From Acidobacteriota bacterium (GTDB lineage: Bacteria; Acidobacteriota; Vicinamibacteria; Vicinamibacterales; UBA2999), in contig JADZCN010000140.1 in the NCBI GenBank assembly GCA_020851565.1, positions 1 to 64,000 of the forward strand: a DNA stretch of 64,000 bases, read 5' to 3'. Under the pieces are notes generated by a model, which saw only the letters and a list, made by a program, of their open reading frames with translations, had not been told where the DNA came from and did no database searches. Every line of letters begins with the position of its first letter. Within the stretch, counting starts at the first letter, position 1. The position numbers and the translations under genes are program-made. Of the stretch, positions 49,884-64,000 are shown piece by piece.

Positions 49884-52382
49884 CTACTTCTGAATGTTCG
49901 ACAGGCGCTGGACTCGGGCGAGCATCCGCTGCAGGTCCTCTTCGGCCGGCGGGAGACTGCCAGGGCGCTGGTCGACGCGCCATCGGCTTCGGAGGGCGAC
50001 GAGATCGTCGAGCATTCGCGTGACACGCGCGGTCACGAGCCGGCGGACGACGCCGGTCGCCGGACGCGACTCCAGGAGGGTGACCAGGGCGCCGGCCGCC
50101 TCGAACAGCGCGTCGGCGTAGTCCGACGATTGACGATCCCGCTCGGGGTGGTCCAGCGAGCGCTGCCGGTAAACGGCCAGCGCTCGCTCATGTGACGCGA
50201 GGGCTGCTTCCAGGTCGCCGCCCTCTCCCTCGACCCAGGCCATGCGCTGATGGCCGTATGCGACGGCCACGGTCGCGCGGTCGTTCTCCGGATCGGCGTC
50301 CGCGACGGCCTGGCGCAGTTCGATGGCCCGCTGGTACTGTTCACGTGCGCCACCGATGTCGCCCGCGCTCAACAGCGCGGCGCCGAGGGCCCCGTGGGAG
50401 AACGACAGATCGAGGCGAGCATCGGCCGAGCCCTGCAGACGCTCGGCGCGCTCGCGGTCGAGCGACAGGGCGCGCCGGTACGCGGCGATGGCCTCGTCTG
50501 GTCGCTCGAGCATCTCGAGTGTTGTCCCCAGCTGCTGGAGTGCGAGCGCCAGATTACGGCCGGCGTTCGGGTTCTCGGGTGCCAGGCCGAGCGCGGCTTC
50601 AGCGGCCTCCGCGGCGCGAACGAACGCCTCGTGTGCGTCCGTGTACTGCCGGGCACCGATATGCTGGCGGCCGAGGTCGAACCACACGCGCACGGCCGTG
50701 GAGAGTACGTCAGGGGTGGTCTGCTCCGCCCGCGGAATCGCCTCGAGCATCGCAGCGGCCTGACGGGTGCGCGCCCGACGCTCCTCGATGTTCGACTCCA
50801 GATTCGACAGCGTGACGTAGGCGTTGGCGAGTGCCAGCCGGTCGCGCGTCTCTCCGAAGCGCGCGGCGAGCGGCTCCAGCAGCGCGACGGCCTTCCGGCT
50901 GCTCGTCACCGCGGCGTTCACGTCGCCCACGTTCGACGCCCCGCGCGACCCCTGCACTTCCGCCAGCCGCCGGTAGCCGGCGGCCAGCTCCCGCTGAAGG
51001 TCCGTGCGGTCGCCGGCCTCGCGCGACAGCGTGTCCAGGTACTCCGTGGCGCGCCGCAGGAGGAGCTCTCGTGCGGGTGTCGAGCCCGCCAGCACCGCCA
51101 CCGCATCGTGCAACTCCCCGAGGACCGACCCGGCGAGGGTCCGCACGGCGTTGAACTGGCGGCCGGCCCGATCCCGCTCGCGCGCGGCCACGCGCGCCTG
51201 CCAGAAGGTCGCCGCACTGCCGCCCGCGATGGCCAGCGTGACGAGCGCCGCCGCGGCCAGGCCGAGGCGATGACGCGCCGCGAACTTGCGCGTCCGGTAC
51301 GCCCGGCTGTCGGGCGCGGCGAGCACGGGGCGGGATTCCAGGTAGCGCTGCAGATCGTCGGACAGTTGGTCGGCGCCGCTGTAGCGCCGCTCCGGGTCCT
51401 TGCGCATCGCCTTGAGGATGATGCGATCGACGTCGGCGTCGATCGTGCCGGGCGGAGCCGGCTCCTGCACGCAGACGGCCTCGATCACCTCCGCGTCGGA
51501 GCCCGTCGTGAGGCGGTACGGGCTTCGCCCGGTGGCCAGGCGATACAGCAGCACGCCGAGCGCGTAGACGTCCGTGGCCGTGGTGATCGGTTCGCCGCGC
51601 AGCTGCTCGGGGCTGGCGCTCTCCGGCGTGATCATCCGCACGAGCGTCGGCTCGGCCGCCGAGTCCTGCTGGAGCACCTTGGCGATGCCGAAGTCCAGCA
51701 GCTTCGGGACGCCGTCGACGGTCACCAGGATGTTCGACGCCTTGATGTCGCGGTGCACGACCAGATGCTGGTGCGCGTAGTCCACCGCCAGGCACACGAG
51801 GCGGAAGAGGTGGATGCGTCGGCGGAGATCGAGCGCGTGCTGCTCGCAGTAGAGGTCGATGGGCAGCCCCTCGACGTACTCCATGACGACGTACGGCAGG
51901 CCGCGGGGCGTGGCGCCGCCGTCGATCAGCCGCGCGATGTGCGGGTGCTCCAATGTCGCCAGGATGCGCCGCTCGTCGCGAAGGCGCCTCACGAGCAGGT
52001 CGTCGGCATTCCCGCCGCGCACGATCTTCACGGCGGCGCGCTGCGAGAACTCCGCGTCGCTCCGCTCGGCCAGGTACACCGTTCCCATGCCGCCCTGGCC
52101 GATCTCGCGAACCAGCGTCCACGGTCCCAGCCGCTCGCCAATCGGGACCGATCGGTAGTCGTCGATCACTCGGGACATCCGCGCGACACTCGCGGGGTCG
52201 AACACCGGCGTGTCGAGACCGTCGCCGGCGCCCTCCATCGCACCGAGCAGCGACAGCGCCTCGTGCCGGAGCGCGTCATCGCCTTCGCACCGCGCCGCCA
52301 CATAGTCGGCCCGGTCCGCTGGCGGGCGCTCCCAGGCGTCGGCGGCAATGGCCTTGACGCGTCTCCAGAGCTCGGGATCCAT
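49884..52382 (-). CDS. Ser/Thr protein kinase with C-terminal TPRs
   Basis: 832 aa paralogue of the kinase at 13076-15847, same build. Glycine loop GQGGMGTVY (95-103), catalytic K119, HRDIKASN at 210-217, DFG at 230-232, ASPEQ in the activation loop. A single transmembrane helix at about 369-390 is followed by an extracytoplasmic TPR region (for example EAFVRAAEAAEAALGLAPENPNAGRNLALALQQLG; DEAIAAYRRALSLD). The ECF sigma gene is 45 bp upstream on the same strand. The preceding 194-bp gap to the NHL gene holds GGAAGGC units only. Confidence 0.92.
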   Translation of the reverse strand: MDPELWRRVKAIAADAWERPPADRADYVAARCEGDDALRHEALSLLGAMEGAGDGLDTPVFDPASVARMSRVIDDYRSVPIGERLGPWTLVREIGQGGMGTVYLAERSDAEFSQRAAVKIVRGGNADDLLVRRLRDERRILATLEHPHIARLIDGGATPRGLPYVVMEYVEGLPIDLYCEQHALDLRRRIHLFRLVCLAVDYAHQHLVVHRDIKASNILVTVDGVPKLLDFGIAKVLQQDSAAEPTLVRMITPESASPEQLRGEPITTATDVYALGVLLYRLATGRSPYRLTTGSDAEVIEAVCVQEPAPPGTIDADVDRIILKAMRKDPERRYSGADQLSDDLQRYLESRPVLAAPDSRAYRTRKFAARHRLGLAAAALVTLAIAGGSAATFWQARVAARERDRAGRQFNAVRTLAGSVLGELHDAVAVLAGSTPARELLLRRATEYLDTLSREAGDRTDLQRELAAGYRRLAEVQGSRGASNVGDVNAAVTSSRKAVALLEPLAARFGETRDRLALANAYVTLSNLESNIEERRARTRQAAAMLEAIPRAEQTTPDVLSTAVRVWFDLGRQHIGARQYTDAHEAFVRAAEAAEAALGLAPENPNAGRNLALALQQLGTTLEMLERPDEAIAAYRRALSLDRERAERLQGSADARLDLSFSHGALGAALLSAGDIGGAREQYQRAIELRQAVADADPENDRATVAVAYGHQRMAWVEGEGGDLEAALASHERALAVYRQRSLDHPERDRQSSDYADALFEAAGALVTLLESRPATGVVRRLVTARVTRMLDDLVALRSRWRVDQRPGSLPPAEEDLQRMLARVQRLSNIQK

Positions 52383-52427
52383 CGGAAGGTGTCAGGACGC
52401 GGGTGGGCGGGCTGCGGATCCCGCGCG

Positions 52428-53033
52428 TCAGGCCTCCGGTGCCGCCTGGCCCTCGGTCAGGGCCCGGTGCAACCAGCCCTTGGCGACGGCCCATTCCCGT
52501 TTGACCGTCGCGGGTGACGTGCGCATCACCATGGCCGTTTCCTCGACGGTCAGACCGCCGAAGAAGCGCAGCTCCACGAGCCTGGCCTGATCGGGATCGA
52601 GCTGCTCCAACCCCGTCAGCGCGCGATCGAGATCGAGCAGGTCGATCGTGCTGACCGGTGCGTCGGACGCAGGCATCGACAGCTCGTCGAGGGTCACACG
52701 GGCGCTCGCGCCGCCCCGCTTGGCCCTGCGCGCGCCTCTTGCTTCGTCGAGCAGAACCCGCCGCATGATCCTCGAGGCGATGGCGAAGAAGTGCGCGCGG
52801 TTCTCCCAGCTGCTGCCGCGCTGGCCAAGGAGCTTCAGGTACGCCTCGTGGACCAGCGCCGTCGTCCGCAGCGCGCCCTGGCGCCATTCCCGGCGGGCGT
52901 GGCTCGAGGCAATGGCACGCAGTTCCTGGTAGACGAGGGGTATGAGGCGATCGAGCGCGTCCCGATTGCCAACCTGCCAGTCATGGAGCAGGCGAGTGAT
53001 CTCTGCCGGAGAGCTGGGGTGGCACTCGGTCAC
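52428..53033 (-). CDS. ECF sigma factor (acidobacterial TIGR02999-like)
   Basis: 201 aa, GTG start. Region 2: YQELRAIASSHARREWRQGALRTTALVHEAYLKLLG and HFFAIASRIMRRVLLDEARG; region 4: RLVELRFFGGLTVEETAMVMRTSPATVKREWAVAKGWL. Together with the following kinase gene it duplicates the 13076-16483 module. The first helix of region 2 retains the P-L/V-Y-Q/P-E-L-R-x-I-A-S signature common to both copies. No anti-sigma gene nearby. Confidence 0.9.
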   Translation of the reverse strand: MTECHPSSPAEITRLLHDWQVGNRDALDRLIPLVYQELRAIASSHARREWRQGALRTTALVHEAYLKLLGQRGSSWENRAHFFAIASRIMRRVLLDEARGARRAKRGGASARVTLDELSMPASDAPVSTIDLLDLDRALTGLEQLDPDQARLVELRFFGGLTVEETAMVMRTSPATVKREWAVAKGWLHRALTEGQAAPEA

Positions 53034-53194: not shown

Positions 53195-55756
53195 CTACTC
53201 CGTCCGCAGCGCGCTCATCGGCGCCAGGGCGGCCGCCCGCGTGGCCGGCACGAGCGAGGCCACGAACGCCGCTATGGCGAGAGCGCCTGCCGCCACGCCC
53301 AGCGCGGCCGGGTCCCAGAACGACACACCATACAGCTGCGCCGACAGCAGGTAGCCGGCGCCAACCGCTAGAGGCAGGCCCAGTGCCAGGCCGATCGCGG
53401 CGCGACTGAACGCGCCGCCGAGCACGAGGCGGACGACGCGCGCGCGATCCGCGCCGAGCGCCATGCGCACCCCGATCTCGCTCGTGCGGCGGGCCACCGA
53501 GTAGGCCGTCACGCCGTAGAGCCCGATGGCCGCCAGGATCAGGGCCACGCCGCCGAAGAGCCCCGCCAGGCTCGCCACGGCCCGCTGCTGGTCGAATGTT
53601 CGCTCCATTTGCTCGCCGAGCGTGCGGATGCCGATGACCGCCATGTTCGGGTCCGCCTCGGCCAGGACGCGGGCCACCTGCGGCTCCAGCACGCCTGGCG
53701 GCGTGTCGGTCACCAGCAGCAGCCCGCCGACGAAGTGCGAGGCGGTCTCCACGCGCCTCATCATCTCGTTCGCGTAGTTCACCGTCTGCGCGAGCGGGAC
53801 GAAGAACATCGGACGCGCGGGCCGGTCGAGCTGGAACGCCTGGAACCTGGGATCGCGCACCACGCCGACGATGCGGAACGAGTTGACGTTCTCCGGCATG
53901 TTCAGGCCGAAGTGCTGATCCAGGGGATCCTCCTCCGGTTTGAAGAAGCGCTTCACGAACGCCTCGTTCACGACGGCCACGTTCTCCGACGTCTCGTTGT
54001 CGGCCTCGGTGAAGTGCCGGCCGCGCACCAGTTCGACGCCGAGGTTCTGGAGGTAGTTCGCGCTCACGCGATCCCACGACGCCCCCGTCTGCTCACCCGG
54101 CGCGGGGAGCGGCTTGCCGGCGATGAGCACGCCTTCGCCCCAGTTGTTCGTGAGCGGGTTGTAGAGCGCCAGGCCGACACCCCGAACGCCCGGAAGGCTG
54201 GCGAGGCGCGCCTCCACGTCCCGATAGAGCGCCGTGAGCCGCGCGTCCGTGAACGACGCCGAGGGGCGGCCCACGGACACCAGCACGCGCCCGTCCTTCT
54301 CGAAACCGAAGTCCTGTCCCTCGAGGTTGCCGAGACTGCGGCCGAGCATCGCGGAGCCGGCCACGAGCACGACGGAGAGCGCGGCCTGCGCCACGAGCAG
54401 CGCCGTGCGTGCGAACGAGGCCCGGTCACCCACAGTGCGCCCGCTGCCGCGCAGGGCCTCGATGGGATCCGTGCGCGTGGCGAACCATGCCGGCGCGGCG
54501 CCGAAGAGGAGCCCGGTCACCAGCGCCAGGCCGGTCGCGAAGGCGAGCACCATCGGCGACGGCGTGGTGTCGATGGGCAGCATCGTCGCGGCCGCGAACG
54601 CCAGCGACAGCAGGAGCCGCGCCGCCCCCATGGCCACCACGAGGCCGACGATGGCGCCGCCGATGGCGAGCACCACGCTTTCCACCAGCGCCTCGGTGAC
54701 GATCTGCCGGCGCGAGGCACCCATCGCCAACCTGACGGCGGTCTGCCCGCGCCGCGCGACCCCGCGAGCGAGCAGCAGGTTGGCCACATTGGCGCACGCG
54801 ATGAGGAGGACGAGCGCGCACACCGCGAGCAGGATGCGGAGGCTGCGCCCGTACTGCTCCTTCATGATGCCCACGCCCGCGCCGGCGGGCACGACGGCGA
54901 TGGCCTGCTGTGGCAGCGTGCGCTCGATGTTCGCCATCCAGTTGGAGGGATAGCCGGCCTCGTGCAGCATCCACTGGCGAAGGATGCCCGTGAGCCGCGC
55001 GTCCATGCCCTCGGTGGTGGCGCCGGGGCGAAGCCGGCCGATCACGCGCAGCCACGATGAGATCGGCTGGCGCAGCAGGGACGTCGTGGCTCCCGTGATC
55101 AGCGGCTCCTGGTGGAGAGGCACCCACATGTCCGGCGGATCGGGCTTGACCGTCTCGCCGAAGAACCCGGGAGGCGCGACGCCGGCGACGGTGAATGGGT
55201 GTCCCTCGATTACGAGCGTGGCGCCGATCATCGCGGGGTCGGCGCCGTAGATCCCCTGCCACGCGTGGTAGGCGATGACGACCACGGGAGCGGAAGCCGG
55301 CGTGTCGTCCTCGGGCGAGAAGACGCGTCCGGCAAACGACTGCACACCAAGGACCTGGAAGTAGTTGCCAGTGACGTAGATGGAGCGAAGGGGGCGCGGC
55401 GCGGCGTCCACGCCCTGGCGGCGGGTGCTCAAGCGGTTGTTGCCCGCCTGGAACGCGGTTAAGGCCTCGAACTCCGGCGCCTCCGCGCGGAGGCGCTCGA
55501 ACAGCGGATACGAGAACAGGCCCCAGCGGTCCTGGGGCCCGCCCTGCACACAGCAGTTGTCGCCATCGCCGACGCGGTAGAGGCCGGACGGGTCGGCCAC
55601 CGGCAGCGACCGCAGCATCACGGCGTGGATCAACGTGAAGATGGCCGTGGTGCCGCCGATGCCGAGGGCGAGCGTGAGGACGGCCGTGGCCGTGAAGACG
55701 CGCGCGCCGGCGAGCGTCCGGAGCGTGTAGGTGAGATCGCGGAGAAGGGTGCCCAC
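53195..55756 (-). CDS. FtsX/MacB-type permease, acidobacterial orphan (ADOP), second copy
   Basis: 853 aa with GTG start (MGTLLRDLTYTLRTLAGARVFTATAVLTLALGIGGTTAIF). Same duplicated FtsX layout as 35674-38121: N-terminal helix, periplasmic domain with DDTPASAPVVVIAYHAWQGIYGADP, three central helices (NVANLLLARGVARRGQTAVRLAMGASRRQIVTEALVES), second periplasmic domain, three final helices (RRTSEIGVRMALGADRARVVRLVL). No ATPase partner adjacent. It diverges from the giant kinase gene with a 229-bp gap in which I see no gene. Confidence 0.93.
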   Translation of the reverse strand: MGTLLRDLTYTLRTLAGARVFTATAVLTLALGIGGTTAIFTLIHAVMLRSLPVADPSGLYRVGDGDNCCVQGGPQDRWGLFSYPLFERLRAEAPEFEALTAFQAGNNRLSTRRQGVDAAPRPLRSIYVTGNYFQVLGVQSFAGRVFSPEDDTPASAPVVVIAYHAWQGIYGADPAMIGATLVIEGHPFTVAGVAPPGFFGETVKPDPPDMWVPLHQEPLITGATTSLLRQPISSWLRVIGRLRPGATTEGMDARLTGILRQWMLHEAGYPSNWMANIERTLPQQAIAVVPAGAGVGIMKEQYGRSLRILLAVCALVLLIACANVANLLLARGVARRGQTAVRLAMGASRRQIVTEALVESVVLAIGGAIVGLVVAMGAARLLLSLAFAAATMLPIDTTPSPMVLAFATGLALVTGLLFGAAPAWFATRTDPIEALRGSGRTVGDRASFARTALLVAQAALSVVLVAGSAMLGRSLGNLEGQDFGFEKDGRVLVSVGRPSASFTDARLTALYRDVEARLASLPGVRGVGLALYNPLTNNWGEGVLIAGKPLPAPGEQTGASWDRVSANYLQNLGVELVRGRHFTEADNETSENVAVVNEAFVKRFFKPEEDPLDQHFGLNMPENVNSFRIVGVVRDPRFQAFQLDRPARPMFFVPLAQTVNYANEMMRRVETASHFVGGLLLVTDTPPGVLEPQVARVLAEADPNMAVIGIRTLGEQMERTFDQQRAVASLAGLFGGVALILAAIGLYGVTAYSVARRTSEIGVRMALGADRARVVRLVLGGAFSRAAIGLALGLPLAVGAGYLLSAQLYGVSFWDPAALGVAAGALAIAAFVASLVPATRAAALAPMSALRTE

Positions 55757-55985: not shown

Positions 55986-58706
55986 ATGGCGGTCCCGATG
56001 TCCTTGTCCCCCGGGACCCGGATCGGCCAGTACGAGGTCCGGGCGCCGCTCGGCGCCGGCGGAATGGGCGAGGTGTATCGCGCCCACGACGCCAGGCTCG
56101 GCCGTGACGTCGCGCTCAAGGTGCTGCACCCCGAGGTGGCGCGCGACGCCGTCCGCCTCGAGCGCTTCGCCCGCGAGGCCCGTGCCGTCGCTGCGCTCAA
56201 CCATCCGCACATCGTCACGATCTACTCGACGGAGGAAGCCGACGGCATTCGCTTCATGACGATGGAGCTGGTGGAGGGGCGCCCGCTCGACGAGCTGATC
56301 CCGCGCGCCGGGCTGCCCGTGACGCGGTTCCTCGAGCTGGCGCTGCCGCTGGCCGATGCGCTGACGGCCGCGCACCAGAAGCAGATTACCCATCGCGACC
56401 TCAAGCCGGGCAACGTGATGGTGGCGTCCGACGGCCGGGTCAAGGTGCTCGATTTCGGGCTGGCACGCGTGGCGACCGCCGCGCCCGAGCAGGCCATGGA
56501 CGCCACCCGCGCCGTGCTCACCCACGAGGGCACGATCGTGGGGACGATGCCGTACATGTCGCCCGAGCAGGTGGAGGGACGGGCGCTGGACGCGCGGAGC
56601 GACCTCTTCTCGCTCGGCGTGATGTTCTACGAAATGCTCACAGGGTCGCGGCCGTTCGCCGGTCCCTCGTCGCCGGCGCTGATGTCGGCGATTCTTCGTG
56701 ACGTGCCGCCACCGGTCACCGAGCGGCGCTCGGATGTGCCCGACACGCTGGCGCGCCTGATCGCGCGGTGCCTCGAGAAGCACCCCGAGGAACGCGTGCA
56801 GACGGCGCGCGACGTCCACAACGAGTTGCGGCACGTTCAGAAGCAGCTCGAGTCGGGGGCGGGGAGGCGTTCGGGCAGCGGAGCGCCTTCCGGCACGGAG
56901 GCGTCGCTCTGGATGGCGGTGCTGCCGTTCGGCGCGCGCTCTGCCGATGCCGATTCCGAGGCCCTCGCCGCCGGGCTGACCGAGGACATCACCGGCGGGC
57001 TGTCGCGGTTCCCCGCGCTCTCGGTGATTGCGCCGCAATCGGCGGCGGCGTTCAGGAACAGTCCGCTCGACGTGCGGCAGATTGCCGAGCGGCTGGGCGC
57101 GCGCTACGTGCTGGGCGGCACGGTGCGGAAGTCCGCGAGCGCGGTCCGGATCGCGGCCCACCTGGTGGATGCGCACAACGGCGCGCACCTGTGGACGGAT
57201 ACCTACGATCAGCGGCTGGACGGGACCGACCTCTTCACCATCCAGGACGACGTCACCGACCGCATCGTCGCGACGATTGCGGACAAGGCCGGGGTGCTGG
57301 CGCGGTCGATGGTGCAGGCGCTGCGCCAGCTCCCGATGGAGCAGCTGAGCGCGCGCGAGTTGATCTTCCGCTGCTGGATGTTCCAGTGGCAGCCGATGCC
57401 GGAGGTTCAGGCCGAGGTGCGGCGCGCCCTGGAGCACCACCTCGAGGCCCGCTCCGACAACCCGCACCTGTGGGCCGAGCTCGCCAACATCTACATCTGC
57501 GAGCACTCGCTGTTCTTCAACCCGCTGCCCGACGCGCTCGGCCGGGCGATGCGTGCGGCGCGGCGCGCCATCGAGATCGATCCAGGCAACCAGGAGGGTT
57601 GGGAGATGGTGGCGCTCACGTCCTTCTACCTGAAGGACGAGGCAGGCATGATCGAGGCCGCCGATCGCGCCATCCGTCTCAATCCACGCAATTCCAACGC
57701 GCTGGCGTGGATGGGGAACATCCGCACCCACGCTGGCGACTACGACCGCGGCTCGGAGCTGACCGGGCGGGCGATGACGCTCAACCCGGCGCATCCGGGC
57801 TGGTATCACTTCGCACCGTTCAACCGCCACTTCGCCCGCGGCGAGTACGACGAGGCGCTCAAGGCCGCGCGCCGCGTCAACATGCCGGAGTTCATGTGGA
57901 TGCACTTCGCGGTGGCCGCCGCCGCCGGGCAGCTCGGCCTCGGCTCCGAGGCGAAGAAGGCTGCCGAGGCCATGGTCGCCCTGGCACCCTCGTTCGCGGA
58001 CGAGGCGAGCCTGCGCGAGTTCGTGACCCGCTGGTACTGGCCGACCGACCTGATCGAGTGCCTCCTCGATGGTGTGGCGCGCGCACTCAGTGCGGAGGGA
58101 AGCGACGCGGCCGTGCCTTCGCGCTCGTCGTCTGCGGAGGCGGGTCAGGCGACGGGACGGCCCCGGTCGGGCTTGGCGGCCGATCGCGATCGCTCGATCG
58201 CCGTCGTGCCGTTCGCCGCCGCCAGCGGTGATCCGGACACGCAGGCGCTCACTGACGGCCTCACCGAGGACATCACCGCCGGACTCTCCCGCTTCCCGTA
58301 TCTGTCGGTGGTCGCGGCGCACTCCGCGCGCCAGTACCGCGGCAGCACCGCCGACGTGCGCCGGCTGGGTGAGGCGTTGGGCGCGCGCTACCTCCTCGAC
58401 GGCAACGCGCGTCGTGTCGGCGCGGCGCTCCGCCTCACCGTCCGGCTCGTGGACACGGCCAGCGGCGCGCAGCTGTGGAGCGAGACCTACAACCGGGCCG
58501 GCACGAACGCCGACCGGCTGGCGCTGCAGGACGATCTCACGGACCGGATCGTCGCGACGGTCGCGGACGCGCATGGCGTGCTGCTGCGTGCGATGAGCCA
58601 GGGTGTGGAGCAGCTCTCCGCGGACCAGCTGGGCCCCGACGCGCTGGCCCTGCGGTACTGGGCCTACCACCGCCAGCACGCCGGCGCAGCACGCGCTCCT
58701 CCGTGA
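55986..58706 (+). CDS. Ser/Thr kinase with tandem TolB-N/TPR modules, first part of giant gene
   Basis: 906 residues to the first stop. The start ATG follows GAGGGG; another ATG four codons on is possible. Kinase domain 16-280: glycine loop GAGGMG (23-28), K45, HRDLKPGN 136-143, DFG 156-158, SPEQ. Module 1 begins at about 56910 (WMAVLPFGARSADADSEAL ... GLTEDITGGLSRFP), a COG5616-type TolB amino-terminal domain followed by TPR-like helices ending in HPGWYHF ... R-V-N-M-P. Module 2 begins at about 58194 (SIAVVPFAAASGDPDTQAL). The frame stops at TGA 58704 in the linker of module 2, while the homologous continuation is in the +1 frame, so the gene is broken here by a frameshift. No transmembrane helix is evident, so a cytosolic signalling protein is likely. 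Confidence 0.9.
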   Translation: MAVPMSLSPGTRIGQYEVRAPLGAGGMGEVYRAHDARLGRDVALKVLHPEVARDAVRLERFAREARAVAALNHPHIVTIYSTEEADGIRFMTMELVEGRPLDELIPRAGLPVTRFLELALPLADALTAAHQKQITHRDLKPGNVMVASDGRVKVLDFGLARVATAAPEQAMDATRAVLTHEGTIVGTMPYMSPEQVEGRALDARSDLFSLGVMFYEMLTGSRPFAGPSSPALMSAILRDVPPPVTERRSDVPDTLARLIARCLEKHPEERVQTARDVHNELRHVQKQLESGAGRRSGSGAPSGTEASLWMAVLPFGARSADADSEALAAGLTEDITGGLSRFPALSVIAPQSAAAFRNSPLDVRQIAERLGARYVLGGTVRKSASAVRIAAHLVDAHNGAHLWTDTYDQRLDGTDLFTIQDDVTDRIVATIADKAGVLARSMVQALRQLPMEQLSARELIFRCWMFQWQPMPEVQAEVRRALEHHLEARSDNPHLWAELANIYICEHSLFFNPLPDALGRAMRAARRAIEIDPGNQEGWEMVALTSFYLKDEAGMIEAADRAIRLNPRNSNALAWMGNIRTHAGDYDRGSELTGRAMTLNPAHPGWYHFAPFNRHFARGEYDEALKAARRVNMPEFMWMHFAVAAAAGQLGLGSEAKKAAEAMVALAPSFADEASLREFVTRWYWPTDLIECLLDGVARALSAEGSDAAVPSRSSSAEAGQATGRPRSGLAADRDRSIAVVPFAAASGDPDTQALTDGLTEDITAGLSRFPYLSVVAAHSARQYRGSTADVRRLGEALGARYLLDGNARRVGAALRLTVRLVDTASGAQLWSETYNRAGTNADRLALQDDLTDRIVATVADAHGVLLRAMSQGVEQLSADQLGPDALALRYWAYHRQHAGAARAPP

Positions 58707-61700
58707 TGCCTTCGAACGGCTGGTCGAGGAGCGGCCAGCCAGCGCGTTCGCCTGGTCTGCGCTCGCGCACCTCTACTGCCACGAGCACGGCTTCCGGTTC
58801 AACGCCCGGCCCGACCCGCTCGTGCGCGCGCGTCGCGCCCTCGGCCGCGCCCTCGAGCTCGACGCCGTGGACCAGCACGGATGGGAGGCGCTCGCGCTCG
58901 CCTACTTCTTCGAGCGCGATGCCGAGGGGTTCGCACACGCGGCCGAGCGCGCCATCGCGCTCAACCCGCGGAACGCGAACACGCTGGCGTGGATCGGCGT
59001 GCTGACCGTGCACGCCGGAGAGCTCGATCGCGGCTGCACCCTGGTCGAGCGGGCGATGGCGCTCAACCCGGATCACCCGGGCTGGTACCACATCGCCATG
59101 AGCAACCGCCATCTCGTGCGCGGCGAGCACGCGGAGGCGCTGCGCGCGGCGAAGCGGATCAACATGCCCCAGCACGTCTGGGCGCATGTGGTGGTCGCCA
59201 TCGCCGCCGGCGAGCTGGGCCGCATGGCCGAAGCGGCAGCCGCGGTGGACGCGGTCGAGCAGCTGGCGCCCGCCATGGCCGACCCGGCGGTCGTCGCGGA
59301 AGCCACGCGGAACTGGAAGTGGGACGACGCGGCCGCCGGGCAGATGCTGGTTGGCTACCGCAAGGCGGTGGCATTGCGGGAGGACGCGAAGGCGCGCTCG
59401 CGGCCGCCCTCGTCCGGCCCGACAACCTCACGCGCGTCCTCACCCGCCGCGGCGACGTCGGATTCGAGTCGCTGGGCAATCAGCGTGAACGACTTCGGTG
59501 CCAGCGGTGGACCGCAGGCGACCGCGCTTGCCGCCGGATTGACCGAGGACATCGCCACGGGGCTATCGCGGTTCGGCAATTTGAAGGTGCTGGCCCGCAA
59601 CGCCCGCTACGTTCTAAGCGGCAGCGTCCGGCAATCAGGCGAGGCCCTGCGCGTGACGGCCCGCGTCATCGACACCGCTTCGGGTGCGAACATCTGGGCC
59701 GACACCTACGATCGGACCACCGAGGGCGGCGTGTTTGCGCTTCAGGACGATGTGGGCAGCCGGATCGTCAGCACGGTGGCCGACCCGACGGGCGTGCTCG
59801 GGACCGCAATGGCGACGGCGATCGGCGACAAGGATTACGAAAGCCTGAGCGTGCAGGAATTGGTGATCCGGTTTCATGTCTACACCGGGCAGCTGCGTCC
59901 GGGAGAGCACGCACGACTGCGCGAGGCGTTCGAGCGTGCGCTGGAGCGGGAGCCGGACGTGGCGGAGGGGTGGGCCAGCCTCGCCTACCTCTACGGGCAG
60001 GAGCACGCGCTCGGCCTCAACCCACAACCCGACTCGCGTGAGCGGGAGCGCCGGGCGGCCGAACGCGCGGTCGAGCTCGATCCGCAGAGCCCGTTGGCCT
60101 GGACGGCGCTGGCGCGCTCGCACATGTTCGCCCACGACGCCACGGCGACGCGGGCGGCCGTCGATCGTGCCCTGGCGCTCAATCCACTGAACGCCGACCT
60201 GCTCGGACACGCGGCAATCTTTCTGACGAGCTTCGGCGACTTCGATCGGGCGCTGGCGCTGGTCGCGCGGGCCACGGAGCTGAAACCGCGGCACCAGGGC
60301 TGGTTCTATTTCCCTGTCTTCAACGCGCACTACGTGCGTGGTGACGACCACGCCGCGCTCGAGGCCGCCAAGAAGATCAACATGCCGGCGGTGTCGCTGG
60401 CGGCCATGGCGGCTGCTGCCGCCGCCGGTCAGCTCGGAAGGACGGATGAAGCGCGCGCCTCGCTCGACACGCTTCGCCAGCACGCCCCGCACCTGCTCGA
60501 TCCGGTGGCGGCACGGGGGGAGTGGAGCATCTGGCTGTGGAGCGAGGCGCTGCTCGACCGTCTGGTCGAGGGGTTCGAGAAGTCGCTGGCCTTGACCGGG
60601 GCCGCGGCCGGCGAGTCCGGGCACGGCTCGGGTGACCGGCATGCGGCCAGTCCTGCCGCGCTCGGGTCCCGCGCGTCGTTCGCGAACGGCACCGGCGCGC
60701 CGGCAACGAGTCCGCAGATCACTGGCGCCCTCCAGTCCGCGGACGATTTGTCGCTCGCGGTACAGCCGTTCAGCGCCCGTGGCGGGGACGCAACGGCCGT
60801 GGCGCTCGCCGAGGCCCTCACCGACGATGTGACGACCGGCCTCTCCCGTTTCGAGCACCTCCGCGTCATGGCGTCGGCCGGGGCCCAGAGGGTGATCGCG
60901 CCAAGGGAAGGACCGTGGCGCTACGCGCTCGAAGGCACCGTCAGGACCGCCGGCCGCGCGGTGCGCGTCGGCGTCCGCATCTCGGATGCGCACACCGGCG
61001 CAAACGTCTGGGCCGAAAACTTCGATCTCGACAGCGACTCCGGCGTCTTCACCCAGCAGGACGACCTCGCCAGCCGCATCGTCGCCACCGTGGGCGATCC
61101 GACGGGCGCACTCGCGAAGGCCATGCGGGCGGCGCTCTCCGACACGCCGATCGAGCAGCTCAGCGCCGAGGGGCTGATGTTGCTCTACCACGGCTACACC
61201 GAGCATCTGCGCGCAGAGGATCACGCTCGACTGCGCCAGGCGCTGGAACAAGCCGTCGAGCGTCAGCCGCAGTCGCACCTCGGCTGGGCGATCCTGTCCA
61301 GGCTGTACGAGCACGAGCACGCGCACCGCCTGAACGTTCGGCCGGACTCGATCGCCCGACAGCGGAACGCGGCCTATCGCGCGCTCGAGCTCGACTCCGC
61401 GTCGCAGAGCGTCTGGGTGGCGGTTGCGAGCGCGCACAAGTTCTCGGGGGACATGCCCGCCCTGCATGGCGCCGTGGAGCGGGCGGTGGCCATCAACCCG
61501 CTCAACGCCGATGCCCTCGCGTTCTGTGCCCTGCTGATCTCGACTGGCGGCGCCGACGAGCGAGCCCTCCAGCTGGCGCGCCTGGCGATGCACCACAAGC
61601 CGCGGCATCCGGGCTGGTATCACTTCCCGACCTTCAATGCGCTCTATGTGCAGGGCCAGGACGAGGAGGCGCTCGCCGAGGCCCGGCTGATCAACATGCC

Positions 61701-64000
61701 GAAGCTGGCGCTGACGCACCGGTCTTCGGCGGCCGCCGCCGGCCAGCTCGGTCGCGCCCACGATGCGCGGCTTGCGCTCGACGCGCTCGCCGCGATCGAC
61801 GCGACGCTGCTCGACCCGGCGCGCGCGCGGACGGCCTGGCGGGTCTGGGTGATGGATGGGCCGCTGCTGGATCGCCTCGTGGAGGGCTTCGGGAAGGCGC
61901 TGGCGCTCGCCGGAGAGAGCCCCGCATCGCGTCCTCTCTCGTCGGGCACCGCGGACCGCGCCAGCCATCCGGCGTCCACGTCGAGTGAGCTGCGGGTGGC
62001 CGTCCTCCCCTTCACCGCCCGCGGCGGCGAGTTCGCGACAGGGCTGGCCGACGGGCTGGGCGACGACATCACCACCGGACTCTCGCGATTCCCGCACCTG
62101 CGGATCGTTCCGGCGGCGAGCGCGGCGGCGCTCACCCCGGAGTCGGCGCCGCGGGCCGGTGTGCGCTATCTCCTCGAAGGACGGGTGCAGGAGCGTGGCG
62201 CTGCCGTCCGCGTGACGGTGCGCTTGATCGACGGCAGCACGGGCGTCAACCTCTGGGCCGAGACCTTCGACCGTCCCATCGGCCCGACCGCCTTCGAAGT
62301 CCAGGACGACATCGCGAGCTACGTCGTCGCCACCGTCGGCGACACCAGCGGCGTGCTCGCTCGATCGATGGGCGCCCCGCTGTTGCAGCGTCCGGTCGAG
62401 GAGCTCAACGTCCGCGAGCTGGTGCTCCGGTTCCATGCCTACGTCGAGCACTTCCAGGCCGATGAGCACGCGCGCCTGCGCAGCGGTCTGGAGCGGGCGC
62501 TCGAGCGCGAGCCGCACGTCGCCGAGGGCTGGGCGCGGCTGGCCAATCTCTACGGGCACGAGTACTCCCAGGGCCGCAACCCGCTGCCCGACAGCCTCGG
62601 CCGGCAACGGCGAGCGGCGCAGCGTGCGCTGCAGATCGACCCGCACAACCAGGCCGGGTGGACGGGGATGGTCGCCGTGCACATGTTCGAGCGCGACCGA
62701 ACGGCGCTGCGCGCCGCGGCGGAGCGTGCCATCGCGCTCAACCCGCTCGATGCCGACACCGTCGGCCTGTGCGCGCTGTACCTGAGCTGCGCCGGAGATG
62801 ACGACCGCGCGATGGAACTGTTCGAACGCGCGGTGCGGGTGAAGCCGCAGCATCCGGGCTGGTATCACTTCGCGCCGTTCACGACGCACTTCAAGCGGCG
62901 GGAGTACGCGGACGCGCTCGCAGAAGTGAAACGGATCAACATGCCGCAACTGCCGACGATGCACATCTCGGCGGCGGCGGCGGCGGCGCGCGTCGGCTCC
63001 GCACCGGAGGCGCAGGCCGCCGTCGAGGCCCTGCGCCGTCTCGATGCCCGGTTCCTCGAGTCGGAGGCGGCGCGGCAGGCGGTGGCGCTGTGGATCTGGG
63101 ACGAGGCGCACGTCAACAACCTGGTCGATGGCCTCGCCGAGGCCATTGCACTGAGCGGTATCCGGAGCGACACGTCCGGCGCCGCCTCAGCGCTTACCGC
63201 CGGGGGGCAGGGTCCCGGCGCGTCGTTGGGCGAGCGGCCGCGATCCGGGTCCATGCCCTTGGCGGCGGCTGCCCGCGACGATAGCGGCCTGCGCGTCGCC
63301 GTGCTGCCCTTCACCGCGCGTGGCGGTGAAGAGGTGACGGCACTCGCCGAGGGCCTCACGGATGAGATCACGACGGCGCTCGCCCGGTTCCCGTATCTCA
63401 AGGTGGTGTCGCGCGCCGCGGTCGCGGCCCTCGACGGACCCGTCCAGGAGGCGCCCGCGGCCGGCGTCAGGCTCGGCGCCCGCTTCCTGCTCGAAGGTTC
63501 GGTGCGGAAGGCGGGATCGGCGTTGCGCGTCAGCGTGCGCCTCTCCGACGTCGAGAGCGGCGCCCACCTGTGGGCCGAGACGTTCGATCGCGAGGCCGCC
63601 TCCGGGATCTTCGCCCTTCAGGACGATCTCTCGGCGTGCATCACGTCCCAGGTGGCCGACCCCAGCGGCGCGCTCGTGCGCAGCATGGCCGCGACGCGCG
63701 CCCACGTGCCGCTCGACCAGATGACCACCGCGGAGCTGACGCTCCAGTTCTTTGCCCACCTGGAGACGTTCGATGCGGCGCGGCATGCCGCGTTACGGGA
63801 CGCCTTCGAGCACGCGCTGGAACGCGAACCCTCCGACGCCACAGCGTGGGGATGCCTGAGCGACCTCTACATGCAGGAGTTCGCTCCCGGTCTCAACCCG
63901 CGGCCCGACTCGCTCGGCCGGCAGCGCGCGGCCGCCGAGCGCGCGGTGGCGCTCGACGCGACCTGCCAGTACGGGTGGCTCGGCCTCGCCATGCACCGGC
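58681..64000 (+). CDS. Continuation of giant kinase in +1 frame (modules 2-6), runs off window
   Basis: From 58681 the frame P-A-Q-H-A-L-L-R-D-A-F-E is open to base 64000 and completes module 2. Further modules start near 59476, 60751, 61993 and 63289. Each repeats the order TolB-N (V-x-P-F, G-L-T-E-D-I-T-x-G-L-S-R-F, G-A-R-Y-L-L-x-G-x-V-R, G-A-x-L-W-A-E-T-x-D-R, QDD, IVATVxD) then TPR-like helices with HPGWYHF and a final K-K/R-I-N-M-P. Spacing is 1240-1300 bp. There is no usable start codon near 58681, so this is not an independent gene. Either the real protein is one chain of more than 2670 residues and the break is a sequence error, or the gene is truncated in this genome. The module linkers (for example 60590-60740) are Ala/Gly/Ser-rich and vary. 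Confidence 0.85.

Follow-up and report, generated by a model that had tools for sequence, protein, structure and literature searches.

The locus at positions 55986-67143 of contig C140 (~11 kb) appears, judging from its sequence, to be a genuine and extreme example of a recurrent, apparently undescribed kind of Acidobacteriota kinase, in which a single N-terminal Ser/Thr kinase domain is followed by tandem modules that combine a domain like the TolB N-terminal domain (TolB-N) with TPR helices. Eight such modules are found here. The window (C140:1-64000, the whole stretch of 64,000 nucleotides that was analyzed) ends inside the sixth of them (Table 1). With middling confidence, we propose that the product of the locus is, or was until recently, a soluble PknB-like kinase with an eight-module docking chain. 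The literature searched contains no description of this architecture and nothing that bears on it directly. The host genome is a draft metagenome-assembled genome (MAG) of 6.06 Mb in 171 contigs, 88% complete; the nearest relatives in the protein search are Acidobacteriota, one MAG labelled Vicinamibacteria among them.

To our knowledge, Acidobacteriota genomes encode many Ser/Thr kinases, hardly any of which have known inputs. A module that recurs, serially multiplied, behind kinases and is shared with cyclases, TIR-like proteins, and winged-helix proteins might represent a defined, testable unit of kinase partner choice; in the eight-module locus, this multiplication reaches its extreme.

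Kinase domain and modules

The N-terminal domain matches the Pfam Pkinase profile PF00069 (5.8e-49), in agreement with a preliminary description of this DNA that had recognized a single kinase domain at this end. The GAGGMG loop and the HRDLKPGN and DFG motifs are intact, and the model of the domain is similar to Mycobacterium tuberculosis PknB (5u94; Z, 32.7; rmsd, 1.8; 256 aligned residues; 41% identity). By its fold, Gly-rich loop, catalytic Lys, HRD, and DFG, this is a predicted Hanks-type (PknB-like) Ser/Thr kinase. A hydropathy scan shows no transmembrane (TM) segment between the kinase and module 1, which rules out a transmembrane receptor kinase and predicts that the protein, unlike TolB, is cytosolic; the only peak of hydropathy in ORF B falls within a TPR helix. 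The protein is not a PASTA kinase either: the PknB/Stk1 equivalog model NF033483 scores 308 bits, below its cutoff of 450, and matches the kinase part only, there are no Pfam matches to PASTA repeats, and no TM segment follows the kinase. An assignment to the anti-phage defence kinases was rejected, as PADLOC matches are confined to the generic kinase domain.

Each module spans ~405 to 450 residues and consists of an α/β domain that resembles the TolB N-terminal domain and, after it, some 13 to 16 predicted TPR-type helices; Pfam profiles and fold matches both bear out the composition that was initially described. Two structure models have mean pLDDT values of 85 and 83, with linkers below 50. 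The α/β domain matches the TolB N-terminal region in 4pwz (Z, 14.3; rmsd, 2.1 over 119 residues) and 2hqs (Z, 14.3; rmsd, 2.3 over 118 residues), whereas the TPR superhelix matches 3hym (Z, 17.8; rmsd, 4.7 over 255 residues), as well as PilW, PilF, and Rap. The PF04052 profile (gathering score, 22.4) matches ORF A with 31.3 bits and the last third of the searched ORF B region with 40.5 bits; on the stretch of modules 3 to 5 it reaches 22.2 bits, just below the gathering score. TPR profiles, TPR_17 (4.1e-24) among them, are matched in agreement with the superhelix fold. By profile and modelled fold, the modules are members of the TolB amino-terminal domain family (PF04052); TolB N-terminal and FlgO-like domains have the same α/β fold and give weak to clear Pfam matches to them. 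TolB is a periplasmic protein with a β-propeller, whereas the domain found here is predicted to be cytosolic and is followed by TPRs. A Foldseek search with a dimodule retrieves generic TPR proteins only, and the fold search with the kinase plus module 1 is filled by kinase matches and is uninformative on the module.

TABLE 1 Kinase domain, reading frames, and modules of the locus (positions on contig C140)
Feature	Position	Strand	Remarks
ORF A	55986..58706	+	906 aa; kinase, module 1, and N-terminal ~40% of module 2
PknB-type Ser/Thr kinase domain	56031..56807	+	Pfam PF00069, residues 16-274
Module 1 (TolB-N-like + TPR)	56907..58190	+	
Module 2	58191..59472	+	Broken by frame change near 58684
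ORF B	58603..67143	+	2846 aa; remainder of module 2 through module 8; window part, 58603..64000
Frame change	58675..58706	+	Net +1 or −2 bases; kinase-frame stop at 58704-58706
Module 3	59473..60747	+	21-residue gap in TolB-N part
Module 4	60748..61989	+	
Module 5	61990..63288	+	
Module 6	63289..64635	+	Window edge at 64000 inside module
Module 7	64636-65922	+	Wholly past window
Module 8	65923-67143	+	Wholly past window

The starts of modules 1 to 6 reproduce to the base the periods of 1284, 1282, 1275, 1242, and 1299 bp reported earlier, and extension of the contig adds two modules, up to the end of the frame, to the "at least six" that had been expected to continue past the window. The eight modules share 36 to 51% pairwise identity in protein and 53 to 61% in DNA, as expected from the original view of a diverged array and not a recent assembly duplicate. 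The longest exact repeat within the gene is only 24 bp, so that mis-assembly of repeats is unlikely, and together with the DNA identities this also argues against a recent duplication; the sole report of Tandem Repeats Finder, for periods of at most 500, is a two-copy 24-bp repeat.

Against a profile built from other proteins only, modules 1 to 8 score 472, 462 (read across the frame change), 398, 372, 432, 427, 388, and 427 bits, respectively. All eight keep 57 to 67 of the 75 family-conserved positions (54 to 75 in other proteins). The middle of the TolB-N part is eroded in modules 3 to 5, module 3 having the gap listed in Table 1, and in module 6 the HPGWY motif is without its near-invariant Trp. 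Since modules 3 and 6 have lost conserved residues, some modules may be nonfunctional. The linkers between modules are rich in Ser, Ala, Pro, and Gly.

Reading frames and neighboring genes

The preliminary description envisaged a single chain of more than 2670 residues running past the window. The array does continue there, but not as one open chain, as the kinase frame stops within module 2. ORF A contains the kinase with one full and one partial module, and ORF B contains six full modules and no kinase. In module 2, the module profile is split across the two frames (positions 2-166 in ORF A and 161-422 in ORF B), and a codon-usage hidden Markov model (HMM) places the switch at 58683/58684. 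Because the homology and the codon usage each pass to the other frame at ~58684, ORF A and ORF B are, on sequence grounds, a once-continuous coding sequence with an internal net frame change. The G+C content at the three codon positions is normal in both (0.72/0.51/0.91 in ORF A and 0.75/0.54/0.88 in ORF B). The change falls in the middle of module 2 and not at a module boundary, and the separate genes with their own starts that could have accounted for the array are not seen; for modules 3 to 8, all in one stop-free frame, a separate gene per module is ruled out.

As the modules downstream of 58684 are not decayed, the frame change would stem either from an error in the assembly or from a mutation that occurred recently. 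Were it real, the kinase produced would carry about 1.4 modules, and the 2846-residue remainder would be untranslated or separately started, in early decay. We consider this possible but rather unlikely. The assembly does show two frames, and the two-module kinase on contig C17 of the same genome (L006:3401-6963) likewise changes frame, in the linker between its kinase and modules. The next gene downstream, an O-methyltransferase (C140 67219-67868; L005:12219-12872), is broken as well, with its N- and C-terminal parts in different frames and the middle of the domain missing. Furthermore, 464 kb of this genome contain 7 frame-shift-like junctions, whereas a single-contig genome from the same order shows none in 400 kb. 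However, the C17 frame change and the broken O-methyltransferase could come equally from assembly errors, the junctions elsewhere in this draft MAG can also be read in favor of an error, since a somewhat error-prone assembly would give the same excess, and modules 3 to 8 are without stops and normally conserved.

No partner gene is evident near the giant-kinase locus. Within the window, an ECF sigma factor adjoins a TPR kinase (49884-53033, minus strand), and a MacB/FtsX-type permease (53195-55756) is divergent from the giant kinase. A short kinase remnant (GQVKVLDFGLAKP) is found on the minus strand at L005:13775-14269, beside an intact dienelactone-hydrolase-like gene. On C17, a further kinase gene (L006:13068-14825) looks broken: the region of the HRD catalytic loop and its surroundings is missing, and a shift of frame follows.

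Relatives and origin of the array

At strict thresholds, this module subtype is found in 5 of 162 genomes of the order, in 16 of 396 genomes drawn across the phylum, and in 24 of 399 genomes of another class, although these figures come from different thresholds and queries and do not form a single census. One module per protein had been assumed to be the norm, but Acidobacteriota repeatedly show kinases in which a single open frame holds two to five modules. Five are found in L053 (2470 aa) and in L057 (at a contig edge, at least 4 + 1), four in L066, three in L046, L048, L056, L063, and L175, and two in many others; these counts include ordinary TolB-N/TPR modules, and this subtype alone reaches at most four outside the present locus. 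Eight modules are the most found among the 4 to 10 candidates scored per genome, and the longest open frame elsewhere among the scored candidates (2470 aa) is shorter than ORF B alone. The eight-module form is found in one genome only, and four other genomes of the genus show no comparable match to the array.

The kinases of a Terriglobia MAG (L053, 4 + 1), a member of the Pyrinomonadaceae (L057), and Acidobacteriaceae (L046 and L048) combine a PknB-like kinase with tandem modules of the same subtype in a single open frame and, like the window protein, show no TM linker. They have fewer modules, often with one ordinary TolB-N/TPR module at the end, which is absent from the window protein. Within these proteins, the modules do not have one another as nearest kin, whereas those of the window protein group together. 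Indeed, modules of these four are scattered over the module tree, suggesting that arrays arose more than once or that modules were shuffled.

The same tree places the eight modules of the locus alongside the first modules of the C17 kinase, G035, and L047. Modules 1 and 2 are sisters (support, 97), and modules 3 to 5 form a group (97), with modules 6 to 8 near them and modules 3 to 8 together (92). A tree with all eight modules in one clade is retained (p-AU, 0.66) and is slightly better than that from a free quick search. This branching favors growth largely within the lineage and agrees with the serial duplication proposed at the outset; the array probably grew by such duplication of the subtype module of a C17-like kinase. 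The C17 and G035:C113 kinases, which are among the nearest by both kinase and module, consist of a kinase, one subtype module (versus eight), and one ordinary TolB-N/TPR module, which is the probable pre-expansion architecture, as judged from these comparisons.

The same module is also found after class III cyclase-like (L052, L054, and L059), TIR-like (L062), and winged-helix (L073) domains, the N-terminal domains having been read by eye; these fusions suggest a portable binding or regulatory module. In the Verrucomicrobia locus L052:2300-15134, five frames lie side by side, each with a single TolB-N/TPR module or a pair of them; a cyclase-like domain precedes the modules in at least one frame. 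The L174 and L177 kinases carry long extra C-terminal regions after the modules, that of L177 being AAA/STAND ATPase-like (read by eye).

Possible functions of the module chain

The role as a multivalent scaffold or sensor suggested in the preliminary description is plausible. In the docking chain proposed here, the TPR groove of each module would bind a protein or peptide, and the array would gather multiple partners or substrates, either different ones or copies of the same one, beside a single kinase domain. Flexible linkers would let the chain bring docked partners to the kinase, and partner occupancy might control or direct phosphorylation, by analogy with the role proposed for the TPR domain of PknG. 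TPRs rank with the domains attached most frequently to prokaryotic kinases (PMC2877116). PknG of Corynebacterium and Mycobacterium is a soluble Ser/Thr kinase whose C-terminal TPR domain has been proposed to serve as a scaffold that connects the detection of signals with the phosphorylation of substrates (PMC8546545). The likeness is in logic only, as PknG contains one TPR domain, no TolB-N part, and an N-terminal docking segment, and no homology to the window protein is proposed beyond the kinase fold. Since the modules diverged after duplication, the copies may now bind nonidentical partners. A more tentative extension, to which we give fairly low credence, is a kinase hub of ~3,700 residues whose eight diverged modules would dock different partners, and duplication would drive the evolution of module number across Acidobacteriota.

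The modules might instead be mainly sensors of small molecules or other signals, with the array integrating several inputs on one kinase. Their occurrence in kinases, cyclases, TIR-like proteins, and winged-helix proteins is typical of input domains, and the region of the HPGWY motif, conserved throughout the family, could line a pocket. This reading is nevertheless doubtful: neither sequence nor fold searches reveal a ligand-binding homologue of the module, and peptides or proteins are the usual ligands of the TPR fold. It is improbable that unequal recombination merely adds modules to a tolerant C terminus, their number having no function, even though that number varies sporadically from one to eight among relatives and reaches eight in a single genome, because most conserved positions are kept despite the divergence to 36 to 51% identity, which indicates that the integrity of the modules, at least, is under selection.
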